DNA from: Cliona cf. orientalis
Taxonomy: Eukaryota > Porifera > Demospongiae > Clionaida > Clionaidae
DNA length: 64,000 nt
Assembly (NCBI GenBank): GCA_963930775.1
Contig: OZ005696.1
Coordinates: forward strand, 4,712,001 to 4,776,000
Reading direction: 5' to 3'
Shown here: piece by piece, positions 11,974 to 51,724 of the stretch
How the letters are laid out: every line of letters begins with the position of its first letter
Position numbering within the stretch: the stretch's first letter is position 1
Notes under the pieces: model-generated
What the model saw: only the letters and a program-made list of their open reading frames with translations
Database searches by the model: none
Told to the model about the DNA's origin: nothing
Translations under genes and position numbers: made by a program

Positions 11974-12315
11974 AACCAGTCTTTACGGTAACTAGTGACT
12001 GGAATACAAAAATGGCCACAATATGGAACGTTTGGCAAGTTAGACGACTATCATAATATATGGAAGTTTGGAACTACAGTAGTCTACAGTAGTGGTCAAT
12101 AAAAAGTTTACGTTTGTACAAGGATCATTTCAGCATACTACCATAACGGTCTTGACGCCGTTCCGAGCAAACATTCAAGTGTCTTGCGCTGCGCGCATGC
12201 GTTACCAGATATTACTTATTGTGGGCGGATTGAACCGCCTAAGTACAGTACTAGTACAAACGAACGGACATGTGGATGTTTGTACGTGTAAAAAGGATGG
12301 TGTACTCAACTTACA

Positions 12316-13670
12316 AGCAGCGGATTCTCTTTTGGTTCAACCAAGGCTTAAATCCACCATCCATAGCCTAAGCGCTCGAGGAGGAGAGGTTGAGTTGCTC
12401 TAGGTGCGGCATCGCAAAGTTTCTAAAAGTATACCAAGCGACTGGTATGATCGCGAGACAGCCAGGTTTTGGTCGACCCAGCAAGATCACCACGAGATCA
12501 AGTGCGTCGTGGAGGAGCAGATGAGGCTAGATGACAAGACGACAGCCCACCAGCTACAGAAAGGCTACTCGATCTCCTTGAGAACTATTCTACGGTGTAG
12601 AACGGCTTTGGGCTGGACCTTCCGTGGCTCGGCTTATTGCCAGCTAATCAGAGAAGCAAACAAGACCAAGATACTTGCCTGGGCACAGCAGCACTTACAC
12701 AGCGGTTTTGAAGATGCGATATGGTCAGATGAGTGCACAGTGCAAATGGAGAGTCATCGCCGTTTTGAGTGTAGAAAACGCTGTGAGGCACCACGTCCCA
12801 AGCCAAGGTGAGATGTAGACAATTTGTATCATCTCTCAGATGTTCAAATTTAATTTTAATGTGTACATGTACATCCATACATAGACCCAAGCATCCAACA
12901 AAAGTCCATGTGTGGGCTGGGATCAGCGAGAGGGGAAGGACAAGAATTTGTGTGTTTGAAGGCATCATGAAGAAAGAATTGTTTGTCGAGATCCTGGATG
13001 GAACACTGCTACCATTCGTGAATGAAATCTACCCAAGTGGTCACAAGTTTATGCAAGATAACGACCCTTAGCATACATCTGGGTATGCAGAGCAGTGGGT
13101 GAGGGACAACGATATCCCACTGGTGGAAGACCCCCGCCAAGTCACCAGACCTGAATCCAATTGAAAACTTGTGGCATGAGCTCAAAGAGTACATTCCAGG
13201 CCTTCATTTAGAAACTTTCCCAAGGGGGGGCACAGCCGAGCTAGTATGACATCAAGGGGGGGGGGGCAAGACTGTTTTCCGTGCACACAATCTCTAGCGG
13301 GGTCTGGGGGCATGCTCCCCCAGAAAATTTTTGCATTCTGGACTCCCGGAGATTGCTTCTGGTGCACTCTCAGGCACTACATTTTGAATACTTAATATCA
13401 TGATTATTATTCACGTTAGGCGATTTCTTGACTTTATGCGTGTGATAGTACCAGCTTTATAAGGGGGGGGGGGGCAAGGGGGGGCGAGAGTTTATCAAGG
13501 GGGGGGGCGAGCGCCCCCCCCTGCCCCCCCTAAATGAAGCCCTGCATTCACCGTGAAGTCAAGCCCAAGACAAAGGATGAATTGATGGACGGAATTATTG
13601 AATTTTGGTCAACAGTAGATCAAGATAAATGCATAAAGTACATTAGATTAGACACCTAAAAAAGTAATAC
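12316..13670 (+). pseudogene. Tc1-like DD34E transposase, copy A (decayed)
   Basis: Frames spliced across a 77-bp intron (12,808-12,884, gtgaga...tacatag) give a helix-turn-helix region with a GRPSK-like linker, then AIWSDECTVQME (first Asp), HPTKVHVWAGIS, FMQDNDP (second Asp) and PIENLWHELKEY (catalytic Glu at D+34). This is the Tc1 lineage of the Tc1/mariner superfamily, a nuclear cut-and-paste transposase. It is dead: there are frameshifts in the N-terminal part, a TAG directly after QDNDP, a frameshift before PIEN, and a 348-bp hAT MITE in the last exon at 13,197. Without the MITE the protein continues HREVKPKTK as in copy B. Confidence 0.85.
13197..13544. mobile_element. hAT-type MITE with 5-bp target duplication CATTC
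   Basis: Termini CAGGCCTTCATTTAG and CTAAATGAAGCCCTG are inverted and flanked by CATTC on both sides (13,192-13,196 and 13,545-13,549). Removing it restores the Tc1 transposase frame exactly. The interior is dominated by G runs at the left and C runs at the right. CAGG...CCTG ends suit hAT; 5-bp duplications are known from some hAT subgroups. A second element of this style is at 45,554-45,805. Confidence 0.8.
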
Positions 13671-13879
13671 CAAGTTATAGAACTAAATGTTGCTGCTACT
13701 GGTTATTATGAAGCAGTGCTGATCATTATTTTTTTTTAATTGATCTAACAATGTGTCAGGCCGACAGAGGATTTGCTCGGACATTGTCGGACAACAATTA
13801 TTTAATTAAAATTATGATAATGAGTATTATGATTGAGTAAATTTGCATGATCCATGGATATACATGTACAAAACCATGA

Positions 13880-16134
13880 TTAGTCTGAATCAAACGAGTC
13901 ATCCCAGTCATCCAAACTAAACTTGTCGACTGTAAAATCTGAGGATGCCTATGAAGAAGAGGGTTCACATGATGATGACTGGGAACTTGTGGTCTTGGGT
14001 CTGTACTCCTTTCTAGGTTAACTCTCCTAGTTGTTTTACAATCATCCCACCAATGTTTGACAGCTCTGTCAGGTGAAAATGTGGCAAGAGGTGGGCCTTC
14101 CACTTGAATTTCAAGAAGGTCTGAGAGAGTCGAGTACTGGTGTGCAAAGAGGTCCTCCTGTCAGTTTTTATAATCTTCATTATAGAGAAGATCCTCTCGA
14201 CACTGCCATTAGAGAAAGGTAAGCTAAAAACAAGTTCACTAAGAGCTAAGATGTTCCTCCACTTTTCCACATCTGGAGCTGTGTGAAGTCTGTAGTAGAT
14301 TTTTGGTCAATCCTGAGATAGTTCCTTGCATAGTCTACTGCTTCTTCGATTTCATCCTGAATGGATGCTAGGCTTGCACCTGCTGCCTCCAAGGGCTCCC
14401 TAAAGTGTGTTGATAGATATTCTATGGCACTCTTTATGCTAGCCATGTCATCTTCATCAGTCTCTGTTTGAAAGCAATGCCAGCTCTGTGTATCCAAAAA
14501 AGCCAAGGCTGATTGCAGCAGCTGTACATCAGACCACTCCAGTCTACTTCTAATTTGTGTGGCTAATTTTTGAGAGCTGTGTGTTCACACTGACTCAAAA
14601 CTGATTCACTGTATCTATGAAGAACTGTTCCTTGATAAATGTGATCTTCACCTTTGTCCTTAATCTTGGAACACACCAACTTGGGAAGCTGCCACTGCAG
14701 AAGATCATTTTCTGCCAAGGTTTTGAGTAACTTACTTCATTTGAGTACTGACTTAATGCCACCGACAATATCCAAATGATCATTTTGAAGACTCAAGCTA
14801 AGACAGGCTGGAGTTTTTAATACGCTGCACCAATAAGCATCCCCACTTCTGAAGATATCCTTTAAGTTTAGCTCAATAATCACTCCTGATACTTTTATCC
14901 TCTACAAGCGTATGAAGGTGGTTGATGTATGCACCATACCTGTCGATGAACCTTTGCAGTGCTTTTCGCTTGTGGATGATCCATTTGCTGCCTTGAGATC
15001 TAAGCTAATTTCCACCTTTCGGGAACTCGAACACCTCGTTACGATCTTCCACAATATCCGACAGCTCTCTGGACTTTTTTGGAGACTTCAATAAGATAAT
15101 AAAGTCGAAGAAGCATGTCATCGATGTCTTTGAAGAGTTGGCTTAGAGAGCATCTTTACATGCAAGCTCTAAACGATGTGCAAACCACCATGCCCAAAAC
15201 ATCCAGGGACATACTTGCTGTATTTTTCCCATCATTCATTCCATTCTGCTCGGACACGTTCACAGAAGCACCATCTGTTCCTCCACCAATCAAAACTGGT
15301 TCAATAAGAACACTTGCTTTGTCTTGGATATTCGTGATGCCCATCTTCCTCAAAGCCCTACCAAGACATTCGATTAGTCCATCGGCATCAGCCTTTTTGG
15401 CTCTTGCAAAGATAAAAATCTAGCACGTGTTCCAATCTCTTCTGCCTCAGTATCCTTTACAGAGTAGAGGATAATGATAAGCTGATCTTCCACATTACCT
15501 TTATCAGTGGAGCCATCCATCAGAAAGCTATAAAAATAGGAAGTTGAAAGAGACTCGAAAAGCTCTTGTCGCTGTCCCTCAGCTATGTAATGGCTCAACA
15601 ACTTTGCAGAGTCCTTGGTCTTGTACGCTTGACCAAGGTCCACACCGTGTCTTAGTTTCAATTCATGGAGAGCAGGGTATTTTGCGAAGGCCAAGCATTC
15701 TCTGGCCATAACATAGCAGATATCAAACTTTTTATTCATGCGATCTTGCGTTGCCTTGTCCATGTTGAGAAGGCCTCGTGCAATAGACGTGCCAGAACCC
15801 TTCCTTGCGTTCATGGCAGCCCCGTGCTGGTCACTCTTAGCATGGTCAATTACACAGCTGATTTTGTGATTCGTTGAACCGTTGATCCAAACATCTGAGT
15901 AGTTCTTCATGCCGATTATCCTAGCCTCGTTCGTTCTGCACACGTTGCACCACAGCATATCAACGACAGTGGGGTTGCTTTTATCCGTATCACAGCGTAA
16001 CCAAGTCATTGTCTGGTGTTTTCGTTCGAGTTGTGCTTGCATTTTTCAAATGTAGCCAGGCTTACTTGGTGACGCTTTGGCTTCTTGCTCGGACCTGAGT
16101 CGTCGCTCTCCGTTGCTTCATAGCCACGCTTCAT
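13880..16134 (-). pseudogene. hAT transposase (ZNF862-like type), frameshifted
   Basis: Reading right to left: start ATG at 16,134 with a basic stretch GPSKKPKRHQ, a C-x2-C...H-x5-H zinc finger (WCNVC ... HAKSDQH), the core with MDGSTDKGNVEDQLI and PVLIGGGTDGASVNVSEQNG, then the hAT C-terminal dimerisation region with LVFSLPFSNGSVERIFSIMK, and an acidic tail ending at 13,880. These are hallmarks of hAT transposases with a ZNF862-like body. At least three frame changes are needed (near 16,040, 15,360 and 14,500-14,600), so it is inactive. The region 14,590-15,150 is poorly conserved. Element termini were not identified confidently. Confidence 0.8.
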
Positions 16135-16246
16135 CCTTCTCGAAGTCACAACATTGAACACGAGGTAAAATGGGTGTGGTCACAACGTGCAACTTGCATA
16201 CGCATGCGCACATTAAGTATTATTCAGGTATTACACGTTTGCTAAC

Positions 16247-16264
16247 GGGGGGGGGGGGGGGGGG
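16247..16264. repeat. Poly-G tract (18 bp)
   Basis: A G homopolymer between the hAT remnant and the palindrome/minisatellite block. Confidence 0.95.
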
Positions 16265-16414
16265 AATCGTCCAGACATACTGTCAGACCAGGACTAAAAA
16301 TGACCGGACGTGTGACCTATTGACTCGGGAGAGAAGAGTGCAGGGGTACACCTTTCTTCCATTAATAGGTAGATTCAGGAAAACATGAGTGTGGGGGTAC
16401 GCTCTTTCTTGATT

Positions 16415-16625
16415 TAGGTATACACTCCTTCAGTGCATGAACACTAGGTAGCTAATTATCGGCAATTATCACTGCCAGTGCATGCACATTAATGACCATG
16501 CATCTGAGTGTAAGATAACATAGCTACTACATGCACACATATTAATGTGAATGCATTGGCAGTGATAATTGCCAATAATTAGCTAGCTAGTGCCATCATG
16601 TACTGAAGGAGTGTATACCTAAGTC
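16415..16625. repeat. Large imperfect palindrome
   Basis: The left arm runs aggtatacactccttcagt ... tagctaattatcggcaattatcac. The right arm is its inverted copy, ending actgaaggagtgtatacct, with arms of about 80 bp around a 50-bp centre. It could form a cruciform or be a MITE of its own. Non-coding. Confidence 0.75.
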
Positions 16626-17155
16626 ACGAAAGAGCGTACCCCCACGCTAATGCTTTCCCGAATCTAAATAATACTGGAAAGGAAGAGTATACCCCTGCAC
16701 TCTTCCCTCGCCGCTTACAACAGGCAAGAAAGAGTGTACCCTCACACTAATGCTTTCCCGAATCTACCTATTACTGGAAAGAAAGAGTGTACCCTTACAC
16801 TCTTGTCTCCCAGTTTACTAACAGGCAAGAATGAGTGTACCCCCACACTATTGCTCTCCCGACTTTTACTAACACTAGAAAGAAAGCGTGTACCCCTGCA
16901 CTCTTTTTTCCCTGCTTACTAACAGGCAAGAAAGAGTGTACCCCCACACTATTGCTCTCCTGAATCTAACTAATGCTGGAAAGAAAGAGTGTACCCCTGC
17001 ACTCTTCTCTCCCTGCTTATTAACAGGCAAGAAAGAGTGTACCCCCGCACTCTCCTCTTCCCGATAGTAACTGGCCAGAAAGAGTGTACCCCTACAACGG
17101 CAGCTTTCCCGTTATACTGGCAGGAAAGAGTGTAGGGGTACACTCTTTCCTTGAC
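16625..17155. repeat. Minisatellite, about 101-bp unit
   Basis: Aggcaagaaagagtgtaccc recurs near 16,722, 16,823, 16,924 and 17,026. Each unit consists of two half-units of about 50 bp, both containing gaaagagtgtacccc. An inverted version of the half-unit occurs at 16,330-16,415, before the palindrome. It sits just downstream of the BEN gene stop region on the - strand. Confidence 0.8.
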
Positions 17156-17210
17156 GCTGGAGCAAATCTTTGAATAGTGTAATATTGTACAGATCCCGAT
17201 GGCCTTATTG

Positions 17211-17582
17211 TCAAACTTTTGCATTGGTTCTTAAACGTTTACAAGCTTGTCCTGTTGATGCTTGACACTTTTTCCACAGCGGTTCAAATTCTTGTGGAGA
17301 ATGCCAGAACCGAGGGAACTGCATGAAAAGAGCATGCTTAAGCTGCTTTAGCTCCTCCTCAGGTAGCCCTGGGTAATCCTGCTCACCTGCGACTATACAC
17401 TGCATGAGCACATCGTCACCAAAGAAGGCCTCCCTAGCCAATTTGGTTGCTAGAGTACCAACCTTGCTTTCATAAATGAGACCTCGAAAGACAGTAGTTG
17501 CCTGCAGCAATTGGTCTTTGTTGATGGCTGATGACGGTAACTTGATTACCGCTACTTTCCTTTTAGATGGGGCTGGGCACAC
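17211..17582 (-). CDS. BEN-domain exon of the element-encoded gene, copy A
   Basis: This 124-codon open frame carries a basic start (CPAPSKRKVAVIK) and a C-terminal module with KVGTLATKLAREAFFGDD, LPEEELKQLKHALF, FPRFWHSPQEFEPLWKKC and ACKRLR, the layout of BEN domains (helical DNA- or protein-binding modules of chromatin proteins). The copy at 29,497-29,790 preserves the same signature (FPQYWRSPQEFEPVWNGC). Upstream on the same strand are a Pro-rich linker and coiled coil, then exons up to 24,628. It is open by itself, but the linker's poly-C tracts put it out of frame with the preceding exon unless the homopolymer lengths are wrong. BEN assignment is by motif recognition. Confidence 0.7.
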   Translation of the reverse strand: MCPAPSKRKVAVIKLPSSAINKDQLLQATTVFRGLIYESKVGTLATKLAREAFFGDDVLMQCIVAGEQDYPGLPEEELKQLKHALFMQFPRFWHSPQEFEPLWKKCQASTGQACKRLRTNAKV

Positions 17583-18384
17583 TGGCTAACTCCACTGACA
17601 CTGCCAGGGGGGGGGGGGGGGTGGTGGTACTTTGGCTGGAGAGGCCGGAAATGGTTTCGAGGAGGTGGGGGGGGGGGTGGGGGAATATCTGCTCCAAGGT
17701 TACGTTTACCAGTGGCATGGTCTTGGAGATTATCCTTACGGAAAGAATGGTGAGGTGGTGGATGGTTGGTGGATAAGGCAAGATCCGATCCATCATTCTC
17801 ATCCTCAAACGAATCAAGTCCCAAGAAATTATCACTCTCCTCTAGAAATGGAGGAGGGGATTGTCGTGATGGAGTATACAGACTGTGTGGTATGGGTTGC
17901 GGATCATGTGTAGCTGCTTATGCTGGAATATACGGAGGTGGGTGATTCCTGGGTGTTGTAGGACCTCCAGGGGAGTTGAAACTGAGGTCGAAGGAGGTAT
18001 CCAGCCTTGGAGGAGGAGGGATACAGACAGGTTGAAGACTGAGAAATGAGTGTTCGCAATAAGTGTATGAATTATCCAGTGCAGCAAGCCTCTCAAAAGT
18101 CTGCTGTTGGTCTCTCATGATGGAGTGTTGCATCTCAATGACGTACTTGGCCTGACTCCAACGTGGTTACTCTTTCCATGAAATCTTGAATTTCTGCCTC
18201 CTGAGTGAGGAAGTCTGTACCTTCTGATTCCTTATCCACTAACGAGGTGGTGGACAAAGACAGTGATGTTCCATGCACAAATGGAATTCGAGGTGGACTG
18301 GACTTTCTGGATGCTACTCCAGTCAAATCAATAATACTCGCACCTGTATTGAATAAATGGAGACATATATACATGTATGTAGTA

Positions 18385-18621
18385 ATCAGCTTTTTGATGA
18401 TGGGAAATGAGGGGGGAGGGGGGATAAAAGCAGACTACATGTACTACATGTATGCATGTACATGTAGCATGCCAATGGTATCCTGTAACCAGGTTAGCAC
18501 CAAGTACAATTACATGTAGGTTGGGAGCTGTTCTGTGCTTTGCAGGTCAGTTGTCTAGGAAAAGTCAAAAAAGTACCTTCTGTAATTGTATAAACTGACA
18601 GCCTTTGTGACTTGTAGTATC
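18385..18621. other. Intron sequence of the BEN gene
   Basis: Contains repeated tacatgta words and a short G-rich block. No gene seen. Confidence 0.5.
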
Positions 18622-20580
18622 ATGGAGTCGGTAGACTCTATAAGTAGGGATGGCCCGGATATGCCATATATGTAATACATTACAAATATCTCAAAATAGG
18701 TAATTGTGTGAAATTTCTAAGTGTGAAAATCAGAATCTCCAGCAAATTATCTAACAAGACCAAGATCATTCATGAAATCAATTGCAGAACCAGATATTCC
18801 AAAAAAATGGCCATTTCTCAATCTTTCTTTCTTTCAAGGAGACCAGAACACTAAGCAGAAAAAAAAAATTTTTATCCAAAAACCACCATAAATAATATAA
18901 TCGAGCTGGATGCATAGTGGAACCATACAATGCAAGCAGGCAGCCTAAATTTCAATTTTGTCAAAAAGTTGGTAAAGGTCGTCACGTTTATGTGCGCGCA
19001 TAGCCCCGCCCCTCACGTAGTGCGTGGGCGGAAACATTGCAAACGCATGGCTTCGCTGTACAAACATATGGGGAAACTTCAAGGGCCGTAACTTTAATTC
19101 TAAGGTGTGAATCAAAATTCCTAAAGGTCAAATCTCTGCATTCGATACATTCTGCGCGCCGGTGCAAAAATTATGTCCCCAAGTGCTCCCAGTTCCCCCC
19201 TGAATTAATTAATTAAAATCTTTTTTTTCTACTTAGTGTTTCAAGCTATCGTGCACACTAAGCAGAAAAAAATTATCCAGAAAACCACATAATACACCTA
19301 GGATGCACAGTAGAGCCATACAAAGCAAGTAAACAACCTAGGATGCACAGTAAAGCCGTACAAAGCAAGCAAACCACCTATACTCCAATTTTGAAAATTT
19401 TTCTAAATAATGCACACCACGGGTATTCTCCGTTTTTCACATAGCGCGTGGGCGGAAAACGTTGCAAACGCATGGCTTCCCTATACAAACATATGGGAAA
19501 ACTTTAAAGGGCCGTAACTTTAATTCTAAGGCATGAATCAAAAGTCCCCAAGGTCAAATCTCTAGTTTCAACCCATTTTGCGTGCCCATGTAAAAATTAT
19601 CTCCCGAAGTGCTCCCAAACCCCCCGTGAATTTTTATTTATTTTTTTTTTTCAAGGAGACCAGAACACTAAGCAGAAAAAAAAACTTTGTCCAGAAATGC
19701 CACATAGTCGAGCTGGATGCTTAGTAGAGCCATACAATGCAAGCAGACAGCTTATTCTCGAATTTTGACCATGTTTGGTAAAGGTCGTCACATCTATGTG
19801 CGCGCGCGTGGCCCCGTCCCTCACGTAGCGCATGGGCGGAAAACATTGCAAATGCATGGCTTCCTATACAAACGTATGGGGATACTTCAAAGGGCCATAA
19901 CTTTAATTCTAAGGTGTGAATCAAAATTCTTTCAGGTCAAATCTCTAGTTTCGACTCATTCTGCGTGCCCATGTAAAAATTATCCCCCCGAAGTACTCCC
20001 AAATCCTCCATGAATTACATTATTTAAATTTACTTTTTTTTCTACTTAGTGTGTAATAACTATCTTTCTTTCTCATTTCCGGGACTAGCTCAAGACTATC
20101 TGGACCTCTCTCACCTTAGTTCTCATATAAATTCACTCTATTTTGTAGCGCGCAGTGCAGTGGCACGCTAGTTTGGCGTTATCTCGACAACCGTACGTAA
20201 TGGTGGGTGTGTACAGCGCATTATCGAATGGGTGTGTCTGATACACCATTTTGTGATATAATGCGCATGCTCAGAATATGTTGCTTTGGTGAAGTCATGT
20301 GACAGCGCCTGACCCTAGGCACCTAGGCAAGCTAGCTATTTACTCGTACATCGCTAACGTGTGCAACGGCGTGCTGGACCGATCATGGATGTGAAGGTTC
20401 AAGGCTCGAGGAGCGGTAAGGCGCTAGGCATAGGCGAGTTACTCGCTAGTGCTACGCTGAATCGATCATAGCCTCGTACCCAGGCCTGGGTACGAGGCTA
20501 AATCGATCATAGATATCATACCATCATACGAAGGCACAAGGCTTGAGGAGCGGTATTAAACGTACAGATCATAAAATTAT
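18622..20580. mobile_element. Dispersed repeat E, third copy, carrying a tandem array
   Basis: It begins gtcggtagactctataagta-gggatgg and proceeds through the same arm as 4,961-5,565 to the ctttctttctttcaagg block. It is then interrupted by three tandem 400-bp units and resumes at tctttctttctcatttcc (about 20,062), with the inner E sequence in inverted order relative to 4,140-4,960. No gene found. A perfect 32-bp hairpin (tagcctcgtacccagg and complement) lies near 20,475. Confidence 0.55.
18845..20052. repeat. Three tandem units of about 405 bp
   Basis: Each unit begins cactaagcagaaaaaa, contains ccatacaa-gcaag, gcgtgggcggaaa, agggccgtaactttaattct and ctcccgaagtgctccc-like blocks in the same order, and the last ends ttttctacttagtg, an inverted copy of the start. 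This could be a MITE that amplified head to tail. Frames inside (98, 68 and 67 residues) are not conserved between units. Confidence 0.8.
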
Positions 20581-20991
20581 CCCGGGTAGCTAGCTCGCGA
20601 CTGCCAATAGTAAAACTTAGAACTTGGTTTTCTCCCAAAGCGGAAAAGTCTCATCACTACTTGGGCCGCCTAAAGCAGCCTTCTTTATCATCCTGTTCAT
20701 CGTCATAATAGTAGTATTATTATGAACGCACGTTATTGAGGGGCGTGGCAAAGGCAAACCGTGTAAGATGGCATTGATAAATTTAATACACTAAGTGCAA
20801 TAAAAAAGAATAGAAACAAGTATAAAAACGATTGAATAAAATTGAAGAATGAAGTAGGGATGGCAGGATCAAAAAGTACACAAATAAGAGATAATCGCAT
20901 CTACGGAGGTTTGCAGGTTGGTTGAGAATTCAAGTATCACGCATGTGTGTAAGCCTTAACCCTTGAACCTATCCGCCTTGGCCAAATCAAC

Positions 20992-22146
20992 ATGGAAAGG
21001 AGTCAAAGCCCTGAATCCAGTGGATGCAAGGTGTCTGTCACCGTAAATAATGAATCGACAACTTCGAATGTGGGGCGTGTTGGAGGTGGCAGACAGTTAG
21101 TGACAATTACTCCTCTTCCTCCTGGTGCTGCAGTTAAAAGGCCGTCCTTCAATCCGACGCCACGTGCTCATCGGCCATCTAGTGCTGTCATCATTCAGCC
21201 ACTGACTGCCACTGCACAACAGCTTCTACCTGCTAATGTTTTCCAGCATTCTGGAGGACCACGGCAAGTTGCTAATAAACTAGACAAGGTTTTTTTGAAG
21301 GCAACATACAAGGGACAGAAAGAAGTCAAAAAGTTTACCCTTCGTAATGTTGATCCTACGTTGATGACGTCATCTAGTGACCTCAAGGATTTAATTAAGA
21401 CCAACTTTCACGACGATATTAAGTCTGGAGACTTTGATGTTGGCTATATGGTGGGAACTGAGATCATCAGAGTCCGGACAGAAGAAGATTTAAAAGAAAT
21501 GTGGGGTGAGATAAGGAAGAATCGGTGTACAGCCCTCTGGTGTGATGGCCTGGTTGATGATGAGAGTGGCAAGTCCAGTAAATCAAGTAAACCTGGACGT
21601 AAAAGAAAGCATGCAGCATCTGATGAGGAATCAGATTACGAGGCAACTTCAAGTCAGTCAACAAAGACACAGAAAAAGAAGAAGATGGGTAATGAAACTA
21701 AAGTGCAGGAAGTAGTAGACAGCCTTAAATCAAAGCATGGAACCAAGTACACAGTCTTACAGTTACGAATATGGGCTGAGCTAGTATCCAGTGGCCTGTA
21801 CACTAGCATTGAGGAACCGCCATGCAATAATTCAATGTTCCAAAGAGCTGGGGGTGGTTCCAGTAGTAAGAAAAAGCAAGATCGAAGTGGGTCTGGTGTT
21901 GCTCAAGCCCTGACCGCATTTACCCAAGTTCTCACTGGTGCTACAAAAGCAGTATCAGTACCATCATCTGGTCAGGGAGTGAGTTCAAGTAGCCCGGCAA
22001 GGCTGATTGACAGCCGATCAAAGCTCTACAAACAACTATCTGAACTACAGAACTTAAAGAGTGCTGGAATACTTACCGATAGTGTGTATGCCACTGAAAA
22101 AGAGACAATAATGGATTTGTTGAAGCTGCTAAAGGGAAAGTATTAA
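20992..22146 (+). CDS. Accessory protein of the IS630-like element (Ubl/PB1-like + tail motif)
   Basis: An intact 384-codon ORF with a good ATG, 88 bp from the left terminus. Low-complexity N-terminus (1-95). A compact region at about 97-187 starts KVFLKATYKGQKEVKKFTL and looks like a PB1/ubiquitin-like fold (beta strands, then EEDLKEMWGEI). Two basic clusters (PGRKRKH at 201-207, KTQKKKKM at 225-232) are likely nuclear signals. A conserved-looking block TVLQLRIWAELVSSGLYTSI is at 254-273. The C-terminal 345-381, LYKQLSELQNLKSAGILTDS and on, resembles a SHOCT-type short domain. The function is unknown. By position it may help the transposase bind DNA or enter the nucleus. A homologous fragment lies at 34,960-35,200. 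Domain calls are by eye. Confidence 0.75.
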   Translation: MERSQSPESSGCKVSVTVNNESTTSNVGRVGGGRQLVTITPLPPGAAVKRPSFNPTPRAHRPSSAVIIQPLTATAQQLLPANVFQHSGGPRQVANKLDKVFLKATYKGQKEVKKFTLRNVDPTLMTSSSDLKDLIKTNFHDDIKSGDFDVGYMVGTEIIRVRTEEDLKEMWGEIRKNRCTALWCDGLVDDESGKSSKSSKPGRKRKHAASDEESDYEATSSQSTKTQKKKKMGNETKVQEVVDSLKSKHGTKYTVLQLRIWAELVSSGLYTSIEEPPCNNSMFQRAGGGSSSKKKQDRSGSGVAQALTAFTQVLTGATKAVSVPSSGQGVSSSSPARLIDSRSKLYKQLSELQNLKSAGILTDSVYATEKETIMDLLKLLKGKY

Positions 22147-22225
22147 TTATTAGTACAATGTCACTTTTTTGCAGACTCATAGTACATGATATTCACTATG
22201 ATATTAAAATTCTTGATGCTATCAA

Positions 22226-23175
22226 CAGTAACCTGCATGAGCACTGTGAGAATAGCAGTCTTCTTTGGACACCATTCCGAATGCAAGAGTAAGCAGTGCT
22301 CTTGGCATACTACTGGCCATCATATGTCTTCATGATGCCCTTTACCTTGCTGAAGACCTTAAGAGAGGATTTAGGTCTGGTGAATAAGGGGGTAAAAAAA
22401 GCAACCGAGCACCTGCTTCGTCCTCAAGTATGTCTGATATCTCTTGTGCATGATGTATAGAAGCATTGTCTAGTATGACAACGGAGTGTGGGTTTGTATA
22501 GTTAAATGGCTGAAGAACTGGTAATGGGCAGCTTCTCACAAAAGTAGCAAATTTGTCACCATTCACGTTACCTTCTGCCAGGTATACGTCGTGGATACCA
22601 TCAAGAGACATCACCGGTATTGCTGAATAGCGGGTACCGCACACCAGCAATCGATGGTCTTTTGGTGTCATGCCTCTCAAACTGTATCCACGCTTTCGTA
22701 TGCAATTGCGCCGGTCACATCCACTCTCGTCGATCCAGATGAGCATGGACGGATCGTACCTGGACACATCAGCCATAAACTTAGCCCTTTGCTCCTCACT
22801 ATGTTGCAGAGCAACTCGCTGAATCACTTGGCGCGTGCAACCCATGAATTTGAGTGTTTTGCATATGATTGACACGTTGACAGTGACTCCAAATTTTGAA
22901 ACAAGCCTCGCTTGAATTTCACCAAGGTAAATGCCAGGGTTAGTCAGTGTTAGCCTAAGCAAAACTAACTGCTCCAGGTCTCCAAGAAGTTTAGGAGGTC
23001 CGTGGCGGTAGCTTCTTGGCTTTACATCGCCTGTTTGTTGGAATAACTCAATGTATCTGTACACTGAACTTTGAGAAACAGATAAGCACTGTGATATCTT
23101 GGCCACATCCAGATCGTGCGCAAGGTAAAGCCACACAGCTCTCCATCGCAAATCGGTAGAAAAGGCTCTTGGCAT
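22226..23175 (-). pseudogene. IS630-like (DDE_3) transposase, missing catalytic Glu
   Basis: It starts at ATG 23,175 with a homeodomain-like HTH (residues 1-60: RWRAVWLYLAHDLDVAKISQ), a winged region, then the catalytic core with LIWIDESGC (Asp149), HSVVILDNASIHH (Asp236) and LPPYSPDLNP (262-270). Directly after DLNP, where PIEE should follow, a 1-nt deletion shifts the frame and the open frame ends at 22,342. The remaining C-terminus is still readable in other frames (VFSKVKGIMK, then LAFGMVSKEDCYSHSAHAGY) down to about 22,226. The third catalytic acid is therefore lost and the product is presumably inactive. Convergent with the 384-aa gene. Confidence 0.85.
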
Positions 23176-23654
23176 CCTGATTTCGATTTAAACTTTGCGC
23201 GGTACCACAAAATACTTGCTGCGTTATACGCATGCATGAGACTCACAAAAAATGTTTTTGTCAACTAACCTGCAAACTTCTGTACTATACATTTCTACGC
23301 TTGCTTTTTGAGGGGTGCAAAAATAACCAGTAATAATGTGATTGAATCAAAACTGATAAACCTGAGCCATCGTGACAACTAGGGAACAACCTGCACGAAA
23401 CATAGCTACCACACTCAACAAACGCATCAAGATTAATAGGTGCACAATAGTCGAGAAAAGCAAGCGTAGGGATGTATAGTAGATGCGATTATCTCTTGTT
23501 TGTGTACTTTTTGATCCTGCCATCCCTAAAGTAAGCACTTGAGAGCCACTGCCTATTTATCCTTTCACTGGACAACTGACTTACCGAACACAGTAGGGCT
23601 TCAGGACCAGCTAAACAACAAATTGCCCCACAGGACACCAATCTGTGATAATTT

Positions 23655-23820
23655 ACCTTGTTTAGTAGATGGATGCTGTCCTGCTCTTTCAATAAACTCA
23701 GAATATCCTGCTCTCTCTGTAGACTGAGGCTGTCCTGCTCTCTCCGTAGACTCAGGGTGTCCTCTCTCCGTAGACTGAGGCTATCCTGCTCTCTCGGTAG
23801 ACTGAGGCTGTTCTGCATTT
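23655..23820 (-). repeat. 24-bp tandem repeat in a BEN-gene exon (copy A)
   Basis: Six to seven units related to caggatagcctcagtctacg-gaga, one of them 3 bp shorter. In one frame they read REQDSLSL-like; in another, PQSTERAG-like with one stop. Unit length keeps frame. The equivalent exon of copy B holds an unrelated 73-bp repeat. Confidence 0.8.
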
Positions 23821-24628
23821 GAGGACGACTGATGAGGGAACCTCTCCCACGTTTCCTGAAGACTGGATAGAGGATAGATCTGCTGCTGGTTCTTTCTCTG
23901 ATGACTGGGTAGATATAGATGGAGCATGACTTTCAATGCGTATAATTTTGCCTGTACATAACAATAGCATAAAATCGTAAACAAAACGATAGAAAAATGC
24001 AGAACAAACCTTCTGCCTTCTTTATTGGTGGTTTCCCACTCACAGCTTCAGTCTTTTCTCCCAGTCGTTTCTTAGCTGCATATGTACATAAATATTTCAA
24101 TGCTGTACATGTACATTGTCAGTGCATGTAAATGTACATATCAGTGCAAGTAAGATGTTATCGAGGTAACATCTACACTCGATATTAAAGCTTACATTTC
24201 GGTTTAGCACCCCTACTACTTTTCGAGTCTTTATCTGCTGTCGTTTGTTTTGCAAGTACATGTGAGTATGTATGAAATGAACATATTTACATGTACATGT
24301 ATCATTCTATAACTTCACTGTACTTCCAATATTAATAATTGCTAAAAATGTATGTGTGCATGCAAGTCGGACAATCTGCCATATACACGCCATATTACAT
24401 TATTATAGCTTAAGTCACTGTTTATTTCAACTGGTGACCCGTCTATGTTGTTGCCCTCCAGTTCCCTCATGCGCGCGTCAACATCCGCTCAGGTTCCCAC
24501 GGCTGCCACTTTGCCGAAATAAACTTTTCCTCCTTCCTTCACTTTCGGATCTTTGGGTTGTACTATTCTGGACTCGTGGATAACACTGTACATTTTCTCT
24601 GACGGCCAAAATATCAGGTAGTAGCACT

Positions 24629-25149
24629 CTGTGGTACAGCAATTTTAAAATTTAATAACACAGCTAGACAGAGCACTCTCCAGCATGCTATGCTTTATGA
24701 GCGACATCATCAGTAGCTACAAGCACTGTTAATAGCTGTATTTTGTGGCTAATACTTTTCTTCTCCTGAATCTTTTGTATTCGCTTTCACAGTGCCATGG
24801 TTGAAGCTGGTTGAGTTCTGCCCTGGCCAGCTGGTTCGATGTGTGGACTAGCTTGTGCTGAATATACGCGATGGTAAAACAGACAGATGAATAGCTTCTA
24901 CGATGAGGTACACTTGTAGAATGATGAGGAGCTTCTGCGATCAGCTGGCCCATGATCGTTATTTTAAACCTCCCAGCGTCTTCTCACCAGGTGTCAAAAC
25001 GATTGCGACCTTTGTACTGTCCACATCGTTCCATACCGTATGGTCCATATTATGCACGTCGTTTCCGCTTCGTTTTTTTTAGACGGAACACATGCGTTCC
25101 AACGATCGTAGAACGGTGAACAGAACAAATTTTTTATTGATGACTGCTG
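24629..25149. other. 5' flank of BEN gene and right end of element copy A
   Basis: No exon equivalent to MATKKSVSRTLRK of copy B could be found here. The segment ends with the right terminus of the element. Confidence 0.4.
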
Positions 25150-25350
25150 TATATGCCAATAACTTGTGGCCACACTATGCATTATATGTACTATGCAGTA
25201 GTATAGCACCTACTATAATCATCTGTGAATTTAGCTAGGTCGATTTATTGAGGCTAGTATTGGACATTTCTGCAGTTGACTTTATTTTCAGTAATTGTAG
25301 ATGTATATGTACATTTTTTTCATATGCTCCTAGTGATAGTCATTGAGATA

Positions 25351-25963: not shown

Positions 25964-26085
25964 TAAAATAGGAAGTGCTTCACAATAATATTTAATTTTT
26001 CTTAAATTATTTGTGTGGATGTTTGGTGCGGGGCTTAGGAGAAGCCTGCAAATACCAAAGTGTTTTTCTTCATTTCTTTATTCAG

Positions 26086-26282
26086 TGAAGCATAGTGGAA
26101 ACATTTCCATGGACCAAGTGATTGAAATAGCACGAACTATGCGTGATAGATCGATGGCCCGCCACTTATCTGGAACAGTGAAAGAAATCCTTGGAACTGC
26201 CCAATCAGTTGGCTGTACTGTCGATGGAGCACACCCACATGACAAAGTTGATGAAATCAATGATGGAACACTCATCATTCCT
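26086..26282 (+). CDS. RPL12: Ribosomal protein uL11 (RPL12), penultimate exon
   Basis: After the acceptor tttattcag, 197 nt encode (completing the split Val codon) [18 protein letters not shown], then [19 protein letters not shown] and [12 protein letters not shown], ending TLIIP directly before a gtaagt donor. This is the conserved C-terminal domain of RPL12. Only about two residues are missing from the protein end, as in other uL11 proteins that stop a few residues after this point. Reading through the donor would add a non-conserved tail, so the spliced model is preferred. Intact. Confidence 0.93.
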
Positions 26283-26368
26283 GTAAGTCGGCAGCAACAT
26301 ACACTGTATGTGACCAGATTTGGGAAACCCTCCATAATGAATTTTCCTGTAAATTGAGTTTCATGTAC

Positions 26369-27614
26369 AGTTCTCCACAGCAACAGAGTAGATTTTTACC
26401 ACTGTGTGGATTTTACAGTGTTTTGTGGTTAAACTTGCATGTATCTATATTTGATTTGATACCCAGTTAGGTCAGTGGATGGAGTGTGCAGTGGGAAATT
26501 GATGTCACCTATATGGCTTCAGCATGCAAAAATGGCCAAAAATTTCCAGTTCTTATGTTAGGCACAATTTCATGGGATTGGATTATTATTAAGAAGCCAG
26601 ATATGCGACGAAGATAGACACCAACTAGATACATCTTTGTGCCAAATAAGAAGTCTTAACCAGAAAGGGTCTTGGAGATATTGACCAAAATAGCCTGAAA
26701 TGTGACAGGATCTGAGAAAAGGGACCACTTTGCGCTATTTCCGAATTGTTGTTTTAAAATGCTTGTATCTCTTGAACCATAGCAGCTATCAACTTTAAAC
26801 CTGGTATGAATATTCTTTCATCATTCTACTACACTCGCTGCAAAGTACAGGCCCCGCCCACTTTCAGTATGGGTGGGGTGATCACGCGTGTCAATCGTAT
26901 TTGAAAATCATCGTTTTATGCTTCACTTTGGTGGCTCACCACTCGGGGCTGGAGGGTTGCTGTAGCTTCTGACATTGGATCTGTGAAATAGAAGGCCCAA
27001 ACTGCCTACAAACCAAGTCTGAAGCTTGGGGCTCTGACAGTTTGTAAAAAATCGAGTTTAGCACAAAGTGGTCCCTTTTCTCAGATCCTATCGCAAATAT
27101 GGTCTATTTACATTAGGCACAGAATCGTGCATGAAAATATTGGTTTAACAGTCAATATTGTGCTCCAATCCTAGTGCGTGGAGCACTTTGCTTCTAAGGT
27201 GTCCAAGTGAGATAAGATAGAAACTATACACAGCCCAACAGCCTTTTTAATACTCTGAAGTTGTTTTGTAGGGTTGACAGTCACTGGCTCACTAGGCAGT
27301 CTGACAGTCGCTTGTGTTAGCTACATACAGTAATACTGTGTAGAAGTAGACATACCAGAGCGATTCCCTACCTTCAGAAGCTTACCTCAACTTGTCTATA
27401 ACCTATCTAGTGGTTTTTGATTGTATTGTTATGTACACATGTATTGTGCACATGATACCAGACCAATATCATAGTTCATCATAGCTTCTGTTATGGAGTG
27501 GTCTTTTATTGACGCTTTGCACACTAAATCTGCTGCTAAAAGTGGTATTTCTATTTATTATAGGTAAAAATAAGTGTGCATGAAAAAAATCTAATCTTTT
27601 GCTGTGTAGCACCG
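26369..27614. mobile_element. Non-autonomous element R1 (TA-flanked), split by MITE S
   Basis: Termini CAGTTCTCCACAGCAACAGA and the complement of CGGTGCTACACAGCAAAAGA, with TA duplicated (26,367-26,368 and 27,615-27,616). It shares most of its length with R2 (33,455-34,512). No coding frame is preserved in both copies. Confidence 0.75.
26702..27094. mobile_element. MITE S inside R1, with empty site in R2
   Basis: Near-perfect inverted termini of about 31 bp (GTGACAGGATCTGAGAAAAG; right end complement of GCGATAGGATCTGAGAAAAG). R2 shows the uninterrupted site aatagcctaaaatatggtct at about 33,786, fixing the boundaries to a few bases and suggesting a short A/T-rich target duplication. Confidence 0.8.
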
Positions 27615-28189
27615 TATGTTTGATCAGCTCTACCATAGAGCTAGCCCATGTTCAAGTTTTAAACCGATTGTACACTTCGCTGTGGTTGAGATACAACACT
27701 TTTTGATTGTGCCACATCCCTAATAATCGAGAAATTGCGGTCTGAAGGTATTGCTATGCACATGCATGGTGTTTCTGCATATTGCATGTGAACCAGAAAT
27801 CAATTAAATGGGCCTGGGAAGAGCTGTTTGAAATGAACGTAAAGATTGAGCAAGTCAAATTTTGTTATAGATAACGACAGCCGATTGTTCATCGAAGCTA
27901 AAGGGTGAGCAATCATAATATAGTAGTTCATTAAATTGAGCTGCATCTACAGTAGCGGTCAATAAAAAGGTAATGTTTCGTTTCGTAAGAACGATAGTAC
28001 TAACGTTTGTATGTGATCGTTTTAGCACTGTTTGCATGCAGCGAGCAACACGCATAATAGTAGGCGTGAACGTACTTGCACTAGTGCCTCAACATGCGAA
28101 CGTAATCCAATATCCGGTTTGCTAAGTACAGCGGTCACACCCCCTTTGCTGGTTCAGACCAGCCGCGTTCTTTTTTCATGGACGTGTGA

Positions 28190-29245
28190 AACAGAACAGA
28201 GATGGTCTATTCCGACTACAAGAAAAGCGTGTACTTGCACTCGCCTCACAGGGCTGCGAAGCCCCAAAGGTCGCCAAGGAACTCCAGAAAGAAAATATGA
28301 AGTGCTCTCGAGTCGGCGAACACAAGTTTCTCTAAGTTTCAAGAGACTGGCTCAATCTTGAGGAGAGTAGGGTCAGGACGATCTTCGAAGGTGACCGCTG
28401 AAATAAAGCAACTAGCAGAAGAGCAAATGCGTAAAGATGACGAGACGACAGCGTACCAGCTGTACCAGTTGCTTTCGCGCACGATTTTGCAATGTCGAAC
28501 GACGCTAGGTTGGACCTTTCGAGGAAGCGCATATTGTCAGTTGATCTGCAACACCAACAAGGTGAAATAGACTCCAGTGGGCCCAGGAATACAGAGACGA
28601 CTCATTTGACAATGTTATATGGACGGACGAGTGTACAGTACGAATGGAAAGCCACAGACGCTTTGCCCATCAAAAGCATGGAGAAGCACCTCGACCTAAA
28701 TCAAGGAGAGGCTAAAATTGTTTATTTAGTTCTACAATGTTACCTTTGTTATGTGTACAACGTACATGTATACTGTAGGCCTAAGCATCCAACCAAGGTG
28801 CACGTATGGGCAAGGATCAGCAAAAAAGGACGTACTGAGATATGTATCTTTGATGGAATTATGAAGAAAGAGCTATTTATTAGTATTCTGGAGGGCACCC
28901 TGCTACCCTTTGTCAAGGATGTGTACCCAGATGGTCACAAACTGATGCAGGACAGTGATCCTCTACACACATCGTAGTACGCCAAAGAATGGATTGATGA
29001 AAATGGAGTGAACTGGTGGAAAACCCCAGCTGAATCGCCTGATCTTAACCCAATTGAAGACCTTTGGCATGAGCTAAAGGAATGTATCTGGAGAGGAGAG
29101 AAGTGAAGCCAAAGACCAAAGAGCAGCTAATACAAGGAATAGCAGTTTGGGGGCACTGTAGATAAGATCAAGTATTTAAAATACATAAGACATTTGAAAA
29201 AAGTTATTCCCAAGGTTATATACTTGGAAGGTGCTGCTACTGGTT
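28190..29245 (+). pseudogene. Tc1-like DD34E transposase, copy B (decayed)
   Basis: Readable in pieces: an N-terminal HTH (ALASQGCEAPKVAKELQKEN), a second HTH/linker with RVGSGRSSKVTAEI, TIWTDECTV-like first Asp region at about 28,620, HPTKVHVWARIS, LMQDSDPLHTS (second Asp) and ESPDLNPIEDLWHELKE (Glu at D+34), ending KVIYLEGAATGY. Lesions: frameshifts near 28,335, 28,560 and 29,100, and a TAG after DPLHTS. The intron homologous to copy A's (12,808-12,884) has its donor changed from GT to GA. The N-terminal exon boundary is uncertain. Confidence 0.85.
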
Positions 29246-29493
29246 ACTAGTATTTCTTATGTTTATTCGTGCATATTATATAATACAAGGTCACCTAGCA
29301 TATAAAATGTGTGTGCAATACAGTAAAACTAATATACTATTCATAACAATACATGGCATACTTGTACATTAGTCATGTACAACATCCTAGAATTTAGTAG
29401 TATCAATGTGTACACATTCGATAAACTCGTATGAAATTAGTTTATAAGCATGTGCAAAAAGAAGTATTATAATAAAGCAAAATAAAAGTTCAT

Positions 29494-32133
29494 TAACTAC
29501 AGTGGGATCGATATCTTTCCACTTGTGCGTAGACGTTCGCAACCCTGACCAATCAAGTTGATGCACCCATTCCAAACGGGTTCGAACTCTTGTGGTGATC
29601 TCCAATATTGAGGGAAAAAAGAGAACAGTAAGTTCTTTAGCTGATTCTTTTGTGCAGTTGGCAGGGCTGGAAGGTCACAAGTACCGGCAAACGTACACCT
29701 TGCCATCACATCCTCTCCAAAGAATGACTCTTGCCAACTTTAAAGCTAAAGTTGGTACCTTACTTTGGCACATCAGTTTTTGGTTGCTCTGAATGACAAC
29801 CATGGAGGAACAAGTTTTTCTTGTTGATGGCAGAAGAAGGAAGTGAGGCACAAGCTGCAGGGCATGATTTTCTCATACTCTGTCCCACAGAGGCATTAAG
29901 TATGGGTACAGCTGTCAAAATGGAGCACGAACATGTGGTGGCAGATGTGAAGGAGGTGTGTGACGACTGGAGGAGAGTAAGGAGGGTGTGGATTGCGTGG
30001 AGCTGGGGGAGGGTGTGGATCCCGTGGAGTTGGAGGAGGGTGGGGATTGTGTGGAGCCGGGGGAGGGTGTGGATCCCGTGGAGTTGCAAGAGGGCAGTCA
30101 TTAGGCCAGCGATCCAAAATAGTACAAACGTTGCAGATCCAGGAAGTGCATCCGGTGGCACATTCCAGTGCATGCAATTTTTGCCGTTCTTTTATCTATT
30201 TTTCTTATCTGTCCTATCTAGGCCATCTTTCACTTCTAGGACTCCAAACAAAGACCAGAAGACAGAGAAACTCTTCTACCTTCTGCTCGTTCAAGTCCCA
30301 TAACCCGGAGACATTCATGAGCTCCGCGGCGACCGCTTTTGTGCATGCTACTCTCAAGCGCTCACAAAAAGTGCCTCGCACAAAAAGTGGCACGTTTTGG
30401 TTCCCTAGGATGGATTCCCATGATTCAAGTACCATTCAATAGCTCTTGTGTTGCTCTACAGTATGAGACTGGAATGACGTGGAGGTTGTAGGAGATGTTG
30501 CACTGGTGGAGGAGGAATGTAAGCTGGTGGTAGCATGTAACTGTCCAAGTCCCCAGCAGCTCCAGTGTCATAAAAGATTCATCTTGTGAGTACTGAGTAC
30601 CAGGCAGGCCTTCCGTAAGGAGATGCCTGGTCACACTTCTCAAGAGCTGCAAGCCTGGCAAGTATCTGCTTTTGATTCTGTAATATTGATCTCTGGACTC
30701 CAAGCATGTGCTCATGCCCCTCCTCCAAGATAGTCACCCTATCGATCAATTTCTGCACTTCCATTTCCAAAGTCAGTAGATCCTTTGATTGGTGATGATC
30801 TTCTGGCTCCTTATTTGGATTACCCAACTTATTTGGAGAAGGTAGCAATGGAACAGACGATGGGGTAGAGATAGTACTACTGAGATTATACCGGTGTGAT
30901 CAACAATTCCGGCTGGTGTTTCAATATTGCCTACATGTAAAAGTGCAGGAGATCAATGTATATGTACATTGTACATGTACATGTTATGCATACTTGGTGC
31001 ATATGTTCATATAGTATCTGTACATAATATTGGTTATTATTATACATGTACCTTTGTTAGATACCTCTATCACTTGAAAGGGGCAGGCAGGGAGAGGGTG
31101 GGGGGCTCTGTCACTTCGGATCAGCCAGCCTCAGTGGAAATGGTGGGATCAGTCATTGTGGGCAGGGAGGGGGTGGGGCTCCGTCGCTTCGGATCGGCCA
31201 GCCTCAATGGAGATGGTGGGGGCAGTCACTGTGGGCAGGGGGGGTGGGGAGCTTCGTCACTTTGGATCGGCCAGCCTTAGTGGAGATGGTGGGTCAGTCA
31301 CTGTGGACTGGGAGGGGGTGGGGGCTCCGTCACTTTCGAAGAAGAATCATCATGAGGCACTATTCGAAGGATTGTTCCAGCTGTGTGTACAAGTAGAAAT
31401 ACTATGAGTGACACCAACCCTACAGGTGTATGAGAGCACACTAACCTTCAATTTTTGCTTTTTTCTTGGGAGATTTCTTGGACACTGTTTTTTTCTCTAG
31501 GTTGTTTCTTTGCTGTATAAAAATGATATGACGCATCAATAATTATGTACCTGTATAATATTAAATTTGGTTAGTTACCTCTCTTTTTTTGTTGAGTCTC
31601 CACATTACCTCTTTCTTCTTCTATAACAACCATGTACTGAAGAATTAAACAGTACCATAAAGCAAATGTACTTAAATGCGTACGAAAGCATGTAACTAAT
31701 GCTAGTTGCATGTTCACGTATACATGTATGTATATATACCTTGCTCTCCTTCAGTTGCTGTTTCCTCTTTATCATCATCTTGCCCCTCTAAATCTAACAT
31801 CAGCTTCTCGCTACCTTACTTCCAAACCCTGCCACCTCCCCTGTGTGCACTTTCGTTTTATCTTTCACTGACTTTGTCCCCAATTCCAGGCTTCTTGTGC
31901 TCAACCAGTTTGGATGGTGGGACCTCGCTGTAGCTGTCTTTTTCTGGCCAATAGATGAGGCACCATTGCTCTAAGAAATTAGAGGCTAACAGTATCATAC
32001 TAAGATCATCAGTTACTAAAGTTTTGCATGTATTAAACTTCATTCAACGTGCACATACACACTTACTCTTCCGTTCCTATATTTCTTTGAGTTGCTTCCT
32101 CAATGTTCTTGAAACTGACTTCTTTGTAGCCAT
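29494..32133 (-). pseudogene. BEN-domain gene of element copy B (multi-exon, decayed)
   Basis: Exons right to left: ATG at 32,133 (MATKKSVSRTLRKQLKE) to a gtaagt donor at 32,066; 31,740-31,970 with WCLIYWPEKDSYSEVPPSKL; a short exon near 31,581-31,637; 31,446-31,512 (KKTVSKKSPKKKAKIE); 31,065-31,380 with 73-bp repeats; 30,440-30,920 with a coiled coil (EMEVQKLIDRVTILEEGHEH ... QILARLAALEK); a Pro/His-rich linker; and the BEN module at about 29,497-29,790. Several frameshifts, a stop in exon 1 and another in exon 2 make it a pseudogene. The architecture equals copy A: N-terminal module, Lys-rich segment, coiled coil, Pro-rich linker, BEN. This suggests a nuclear DNA-binding protein. Confidence 0.7.
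31065..31380 (-). repeat. 73-bp tandem repeat in a BEN-gene exon (copy B)
   Basis: The block tca(c/g)ttcggatc-ggccagcctca recurs at 31,111, 31,184, 31,257 and (diverged) 31,330, an exact 73-bp period. Because 73 is not a multiple of three, the reading frame cycles. It is bounded by plausible acceptor and donor sites (cacacag at 31,381; gtatct at 31,064). Confidence 0.8.
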
Positions 32134-32718
32134 CTTTCTAACAAACACAACTACAGCTGAGGTGAGTAATGAGTCAATGAGCAGATCGTGAATAGCCAAA
32201 AAGAGCAGAGTCGAGTTGGTGAGCAGATTGTAGATAGCAAGCTGGGTGAGGAGAGCGTCGAGTCAGTGTCAATGAGTGAAGAGAAGCAGTGTCGAAGTAG
32301 CTTGTTCTTGGCAAATATAGACACGCGGCTGCCTCTCAACTGGTGTCGATCACTCGCGACCTTCGCACTTTACCGTAATAAGCGTTTTTTCATAGTGCGA
32401 ATGTTTCCGTTTCATTTTTTAGATTGCGAACGAGCCTAGTCCTGCTGGGCATGAACGTAATCGTTCTGTTCTTCAAACATGCGCGAAGTGTTCTACGTTG
32501 GTACTAACGAAAATGGAACGTTAACTTTTTATTGATCGCTACTGTAGATTGGGTATTTGACATGGATATGACAAAATTTGAATGTAGACAAACTTCGACC
32601 TGAGCTACGTCCATTGCATGAATCATACGCAGATCCCATACGGAGGAGGGTTTTCTCGAATTTAGTCACATAATATTATAATATTATTAGCATATCACTT
32701 GTTGATTCACATGTGCAG

Positions 32719-51645: not shown

Positions 51646-51724
51646 ACTGAACCGATCTGTCTGCCTTTGATTATGTTTGGTGGTTATGTAATGTATCAAT
51701 AATTATAATGAGCATTGCTGTTTC

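Follow-up and report, generated by a model that had tools for sequence, protein, structure and literature searches.

A Tc1-type transposon family with a BEN-domain gene

We analysed a stretch of 64,000 nucleotides from the sponge Cliona cf. orientalis, called the window below, which corresponds to C8:4712001-4776000 of the searched genome (216,785,154 bases, 149 contigs). It holds two damaged copies, A and B, of a Tc1-type transposon that carries a transposase gene on the plus strand and a multi-exon BEN-type gene on the opposite strand. The original prediction had reported two copies with matching termini and a TA dinucleotide on both sides, and such ends were seen at 12087, 25149, 27950 and 32544. 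The arrangement of the two genes that it described was recovered in both copies by matching them piece by piece to relatives. The features of copy A are as follows, in window coordinates.

12087-25149, plus strand: copy A, a Tc1 element carrying a BEN gene and interrupted by inserts; flanking TA 12085-12086 and 25150-25151; homology to the C1 copy L010
12087-12137, plus strand: left terminal inverted repeat (TIR), starting CAGTAGTGGTCAATAAAAAG
12297-12808, plus strand: transposase exon 1, in two frames (tblastn)
12886-13644, plus strand: transposase exon 2, broken; aligned pieces 12886-13195 and 13546-13644, insert 13195-13544
13712-17204, no strand assigned: insert, holding an open reading frame (ORF) at 15374-16045 (minus strand)
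17211-17585, minus strand: BEN exon; aligned piece 17217-17540, by alignment with PF10523-matching relatives
18047-18239, minus strand: coiled-coil part of the BEN gene, by homology to a relative
18621-23638, no strand assigned: insert or inserts, including a separate TIR element at 20855-23528
24450-24623, minus strand: N-terminal WP module (WPxE..YS) with one stop inside
25110-25149, minus strand: right terminus, by sequence

Compared with its unbroken C1 relative L010, copy A is an element of about 4.8 kb into which further DNA has been inserted at 13195-13544, 13712-17204 and 18621-23638. The two are 77-89% alike piece by piece, with 85-89% up to position 18620 and 79-87% for the right-hand pieces. 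The transposase of copy A is broken by one stop and one insert, and the frame of its BEN exon is still open for 124 amino acids. Its left end and the right end of copy B form an inverted repeat (12083-12114 and 32517-32548, 91%). Copy B is uninterrupted and has the following features.

27950-32544, plus strand: copy B, a damaged Tc1 element carrying a BEN gene; flanking TA 27948-27949 and 32545-32546
27950-27983, plus strand: left TIR, by inverted-repeat match
28202-28706, plus strand: transposase exon 1, in two frames, by homology
28780-29247, plus strand: transposase exon 2, with 4 stops, by homology
29515-29823, minus strand: BEN exon, broken, by homology
30621-30887, minus strand: coiled-coil part of the BEN gene, by homology
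31786-31968, minus strand: N-terminal WP module, broken, by homology
32511-32544, minus strand: right TIR, by inverted-repeat match

The ends of copy B form an inverted repeat of 39 nt at 87% identity (27945-27983 and 32511-32549), and its BEN and WP stretches have stops in all three frames. It can be aligned along most of its length with element C9, at 70-76% in long pieces. Judged by these alignments, copies A and B are members of two subfamilies, because A matches the layout of L010 and B aligns with C9.

Both genes lie between the same ends across the genome

The terminal pattern CAGTAGYGGTCAATAAAAAG, with up to 2 mismatches, has 260 matches in the genome, compared with 5 for the reversed control. 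Among the 100 of these 260 matches that were listed, facing ends were paired within 20 kb, which gave 19 end pairs. Of these, six measure 569-614 bp and nine 4036-5598 bp, single pairs measure 2230 bp and 6610 bp, and the remaining two, above 12 kb, span neighbouring elements. All nine listed pairs of 4036-5598 bp contain a BEN match and a transposase match. None of the 19 falls at 1.3-2 kb, the size of a transposase-only Tc1 element. The right terminus thus does not normally lie just behind the transposase, and BEN occurs between such ends at many loci beyond the window, against two of the refuting conditions that the original prediction had set. The 2230 bp pair (L013) keeps a match to the N-terminal WP module, with no transposase exon 2 or BEN match inside, and the 6610 bp pair has no match in the BEN-exon or transposase searches.

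Terminal repeats were present in all ten elements aligned, over 35-51 columns with 46/51 to 39/39 identical positions; they are perfect or nearly so in C9 (39/39), C4b (37/37) and C2d (39/40). TA flanks both ends of L071, L072, L073, L075 and L079, and of the C2 and C4 copies described below; the right end of L012 is without an intact TA.

The two genes were also searched for independently of the termini. The BEN exon of the window has 90 matches, merged to 79 loci, and at 61 of these a transposase of the same clade lies convergent (tail-to-tail) within 3 kb, with 18 loci lacking one. The clade transposase has at least 148 matches (150 of 319 candidates scored), merged to at least 120 loci. 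A wider BEN set was made from the exon matches and 35 Pfam BEN matches, giving 100 loci, and a BEN match from this set lies within 5 kb at 79 of the 120 clade transposase loci listed. In 64 of these the genes are convergent; in the others they share a strand, with BEN downstream in 10 and upstream in 5. As a control we used the DDE_3 transposase of an element nested in copy A, which has at least 138 loci (138 of 516 candidates scored). BEN lies within 5 kb at 4 of the 138 listed; one of the four is the nested copy in the window, and the other three (on C11, C3 and C4) adjoin BEN loci with a clade transposase.

Less damaged copies with both genes between the same ends, which the original prediction had proposed to look for, were found as well. 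Besides the nine listed pairs, there are complete copies of 4115 bp on C2 and C4, of 4349 bp on C4 and of 4606 bp on C10. The copies at C2:7449562-7453676 and C4:5615253-5619367 have equal spans of 4115 bp and agree at 99.94% in the 3327 bp that could be compared. Each is bordered by TA at either end, and their flanks are quite different; in the C2 copy the transposase is open for 331 amino acids. This comparison indicates that both genes have recently moved together, since the span is the same, the likeness is almost complete and the flanks differ. Other close pairs, mostly on different contigs, are 90-99% alike in long pieces. The C1 copies L009 and L010 were rejected as two insertions: they are 94% alike beyond the element over about 7.9 kb, so they represent a segmental duplicate and were counted as one insertion.

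A DD34E transposase, mostly split by an intron-like stretch

The transposase has the triad D-83-D-34-E in C2d, and the spacing of 34 residues from the second D to the E was also found in C10 and C1a (three of three measured). DDE_3 scores above its cut-off in all four transposases scanned (78-82.5 bits). Sleeping Beauty is the sole PDB match at E <= 0.1 (2.1e-23). HTH_Tnp_Tc3_2 scores 25.8, 24.3, 25.5 and 17.6 bits in the four transposases, all below its cut-off of 31.5. The predicted DD34E Tc1 type is therefore borne out by the triad and DDE_3 as measured on relatives of the broken window copies.

In seven of the nine elements inspected, an intron-like stretch with GT..AG ends interrupts the transposase after a PRPKPR motif, with 82-443 bp between the flanking motifs; the other two, C2d and C4b, have no such stretch. 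One scan each of viral and prokaryote collections returned no relatives of the one transposase used.

The BEN gene and its protein

An alignment of 19 BEN exons has 20 invariant columns. PF10523 matches 14 of the 19 at E <= 1, with a best value of 2.8e-8, and a PF10523 search of the genome gave 35 matches, all over the cut-off, with element-borne members among them. The diverged BEN of L078 scores 27.5 bits against a cut-off of 23.2. In the Pfam scan the single BEN exon of the window has no PF10523 match by itself. The identification of a BEN domain is thus supported by profile searches through its relatives, and the window exon taken alone does not carry it. A profile search of PDB with the BEN alignment brought up BEND3 at E 0.21-0.35, under two unrelated matches, and was not used as proof. 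Solved BEN domains have an all-helical fold. A structure model of the BEN exon from two window sequences is all-helical, but its predicted local distance difference test (pLDDT) score is low (42.3), and we did not use it.

Repeat-rich exons lie upstream of the BEN domain, together with stretches for a coiled coil and a Pro-rich linker that were recognised by eye. The N-terminal module comprises about 65 residues and has 33 matches in the genome; six columns, including W7, E10 and S14, are invariant across the seven sequences compared. A single-sequence model of it shows five strands and a helix at pLDDT 74.5; the other four models reached 47-52. Its best Foldseek match is a double Tudor domain at E 0.76, with none at 0.001, and we regard ‘Tudor-like’ as only a lead for this modelled fold. 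Scattered, single-member Pfam matches of the module (E >=0.027) and an excinuclease in PDB (0.04) were taken as chance.

One repeat-rich exon of the BEN gene consists of a coding repeat of minisatellite-like kind, and close copies appear to differ in how many units of it they have (L009 3037-3760, L072, L073).

Purifying selection and co-divergence of the two genes

The ratio of nonsynonymous to synonymous divergence (dN/dS) was estimated with the NG86 method for 24 pairs of elements. Seven between-subfamily pairs have a measurable dS, and in these the dN/dS of the BEN exon is 0.06-0.16, at dS values of 1.0-2.3 that are thus near saturation: 0.09 for C1b-C7, 0.09 for C1a-C7, 0.12 for C1b-C2a, 0.09 for C10-C3a, 0.11 for C1d-C3a, 0.16 for C2c-C10 and 0.06 for C2f-C12. 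Transposase exon 2 gave 0.05 for C1b-C7, 0.04 for C1a-C7, 0.11 for C1b-C2a and 0.04 for C10-C3a. The C1d-C3a and C2c-C10 pairs are saturated for this exon, and C2f-C12, in which one transposase is broken, gave 0.24. The BEN exon and the transposase are both under purifying selection.

The two genes also diverge together. BEN and transposase distances correlate over 30 elements (Mantel r 0.53, 0 of 5000 permutations) and over 18 representatives (r 0.39, 4 of 5000 permutations), and both trees support a clade joining C1a/C1b with C2a/C7. The stable two-gene lineage suggested by the original prediction is supported by this co-divergence and by the selection on both genes.

One pair behaves differently. 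Between L055 (C12) and L060 (C4a), BEN has dN 0.045 and dS 0.22, and the broken transposase stretches have dN 0.77 and dS 2.07. The two genes may therefore differ in history here, or the transposase match may be unreliable.

Other gene orders

A second order, with BEN on the strand of the transposase and inside terminal repeats of its own, is found at C13:2743302-2746937, C2:7111539-7115720 and C11:7993735-8002183. At the 5' end of this family, the homology of the C2 and C13 copies starts at TACAGTACGG, and the repeat recurs inverted beyond BEN. The transposases L076-L078 had been candidates for BEN-less elements and were ruled out as such, since a diverged BEN lies nearby.

Among the Pfam BEN matches listed, those with the highest scores in the genome (41.6-43 bits) are at C4:4003935, C1:29350131, C1:37291144 and C14:6093989. 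These four loci have near-equal scores and open frames of 520-728 amino acids, and their BEN lies 1.7-2.0 kb upstream of same-strand clade transposases. From this layout, BEN upstream on the same strand may be a third gene order. The orders may go back to one capture with reshuffling or to several captures.

What the BEN protein may do

Taken together, a Tc1 transposase and a BEN gene lie, mostly tail-to-tail, between TA-flanked inverted repeats, and we hold this anatomical part with hardly any doubt. The BEN gene is kept by selection, and the elements thus look like two-gene rather than one-gene movers. As a working model, DD34E Tc1-type transposons would have acquired a BEN gene and, over a long diversification, kept it as a working second gene whose product binds the ends and aids the transposase. 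As a whole, we put this forward as an account that falls just short of being probable. The BEN protein would dimerise through its coiled coil and BEN domain. It may bind palindromic sites just inside the ends, ACGATCGT about 40 bases in, in several subfamilies. It might then help the transposase to reach the ends, or help to join one end with the other, like the Myb-like protein of PIF/Harbinger elements.

For the role of the protein, the original prediction had put forward end binding, silencing or targeting. End binding, the likeliest of these, is on its own a tentative proposal, supported in part by where the palindrome is found. ACGATCGT is a palindrome, and many termini have it about 40 bases in. 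Ten elements, C1b and copy A of the window not among them, contain CGATCG at 3.80/kb (19 sites) in the end 250 bases and at 0.17/kb (7 sites) inside, with 0.25/kb in the window.

Several observations weigh against this model. The motif ACGATCG or its complement is present at bases 29-80 in just 23 of 51 distinct end sequences, and the BEN-carrying subfamilies C2d and C4b lack the palindrome at their ends. The ends share ancestry, so the enrichment of CGATCG is not independent evidence, and the palindrome could as well be a site for the transposase instead. The six end pairs of 569-614 bp have the size of miniature inverted-repeat transposable elements (MITEs) and leave no room for either gene. 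As to selection, three more between-subfamily pairs are saturated, close-pair dN/dS is noisy (0 to 1.40 for BEN, for example 0.49 for C7-C2a), and the BEN exon outpaces the transposase (dN 0.28 vs 0.11 for C2c-C10). The BEN and transposase trees agree only partly: C12 and C4a pair by BEN, their broken transposases do not place them together, and resolution is lacking at many deep forks. Finally, 41 of the 120 transposase loci listed have no BEN match within 5 kb, although three of them (C16:5052068, C10:1939076 and C15:5968019) gain a convergent BEN in a later search, by eye, and at 21 of the 100 BEN loci no clade transposase was found within 5 kb.

A stricter form of the same idea is an obligate two-component Tc1 system, in which BEN would be the partner for end recognition or synapsis, fixed early in the whole clade and shuffled into at least two gene orders, possibly a third. 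We consider this form rather unlikely.

An alternative of similarly low standing is that the BEN protein protects the element and has no part in transposition. It would act on element DNA as a chromatin boundary or anti-silencing factor, or as a silencer that limits damage. Such a role would fit BEN proteins, which are described as chromatin boundary and repressor factors in the parts available of PMC5043383, PMC3510454 and PMC9233729, and it would fit the modelled N-terminal module of five strands and a helix, with its insignificant top match to a double Tudor domain. The clustering of the palindrome in the outer 250 bases leans instead to a role at the ends, though the 5' ends of the genes also lie there and no firm distinction follows. 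Less probable still, the BEN protein might target insertion or control the transposase dose by autoregulation, without aiding catalysis. Accessory targeting and regulatory proteins are known from other transposons; nonetheless we regard this as improbable here.

The notion that BEN was captured a single time and has since been copied as a neutral passenger could appeal to the MITE-sized end pairs, whose ends seem to be mobile with neither gene in cis. It is largely refuted, and we give it very little weight: the BEN dN/dS is low in all seven measurable between-subfamily pairs, the BEN exon is still recognisable at 43-66% protein identity across many other subfamilies, and a second arrangement of BEN and Tc1 exists within its own ends. 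That host BEN genes merely stand beside Tc1 insertions through an insertion preference, with no element holding both, might be read from the BEN loci that lack a related transposase, but this is refuted by the presence of both genes inside the same inverted repeats with TA outside, and by same-span copies in different flanks.

Other features of the window

Two short elements in the window have the same termini as the BEN elements, as recognised by end pairing.

1521-2108, no strand assigned: short element, 588 bp
3310-3915, no strand assigned: short element, 606 bp

Because these MITE-sized elements share the termini of the BEN elements, the ends may be moved in trans.

The insert of copy A at 13712-17204 holds, in its ORF at 15374-16045 (minus strand), a weak match to a C17orf113-type zinc finger (27.1 bits, cut-off 29.5), and a tandem array of about 100-bp units at 16615-17096. 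The element nested at 20855-23528 has 50-bp terminal repeats that are 98% alike, a DDE_3 transposase at 22342-23187 (minus strand) and an ORF of 397 amino acids at 20953-22146 (plus strand) with a weak PB1 match of 18.6 bits, under the cut-off. Going by this gene content, it is possibly another two-gene element. Its transposase belongs to a successful DDE_3 lineage, with at least 138 relatives in the genome, many of which have open frames above 300 amino acids.

Further along, at 51692-55707 (plus strand), a reverse transcriptase-like ORF of 732 amino acids and a tyrosine recombinase-like ORF of 337 amino acids lie near each other, both labelled by eye. At 61999-63093, an ORF for a YqaJ-type recombinase or nuclease (78 bits) lies behind a cysteine-rich ORF and is probably part of a mobile element.

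Relation to known systems

Tc1/mariner elements are the textbook one-gene transposons and a tool for gene delivery. The elements described here resemble the Tc1 group of the IS630-Tc1-mariner superfamily, of which Sleeping Beauty is a solved relative, in their TA target site, DDE_3 domain, D..D34E triad and terminal inverted repeats. Their termini are of the CAGT type, which is typical for Tc1. Unlike usual Tc1 elements, they reach 4.0-5.6 kb with a second, BEN-domain gene, and their transposase is mostly split by the intron-like GT..AG stretch.

The original prediction had stated that Tc1/mariner elements normally encode only a transposase. This stands as a rule, but exceptions are in print: the part of PMC3627910 that was available describes Mariner elements that have captured a Fanzor1, a GIY-YIG or EcoRII-type endonuclease or a methyltransferase gene between their TIRs, at TA target sites. 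Gene capture by the superfamily is thus already known, and BEN is not among the captured genes described there. The likeness to our elements lies in a Mariner-type transposase with an extra gene between TIRs and TA sites. The best examples in that part of the paper are single-copy and come from algal viruses, whereas here a large, diversified BEN family is found in a cellular genome. No TnpB or Fanzor match was found in the transposase and BEN proteins scanned, the repeat-rich exons lying outside the scan.

PIF/Harbinger is a parallel in organisation. According to the passages at hand of PMC9710019, a 9-bp subterminal motif is bound by the Myb-like protein of Harbinger3_DR, and nuclear co-localisation with the transposase depends on this protein. 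In both cases the second gene encodes a protein with a DNA-binding domain that is kept with the transposase, the binding being predicted here. The transposase family and the DNA-binding domain are unrelated: when transposases and BEN exons were scanned with Pfam, DDE_3, HTH and BEN came up, and no Myb/SANT domain or PIF transposase.

BEN proteins bind a palindromic motif and dimerise on DNA, as stated in the available part of PMC5043383. The element relatives match PF10523 like BEND3, Insensitive, Elba and the bracoviral BEN proteins; unlike in these, the gene lies inside a transposon and also encodes the WP beta-module and repeat-rich exons. In the literature covered on BEN domains and transposition, the titles and abstract openings, and passages of PMC5704228 and PMC11075544, report no transposon with a BEN gene; neither Repbase nor the majority of subscription journals was part of this search.

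A large Tc1 lineage with a selected partner that has a chromatin-type DNA-binding domain offers a natural test of the limits on these elements. PIF/Harbinger, in which transposition depends on the partner protein, is a parallel to it, and the idea of two-gene movers is testable here, because open, nearly identical copies exist. BEN-carrying Tc1 elements are also a possible source of host BEN genes.

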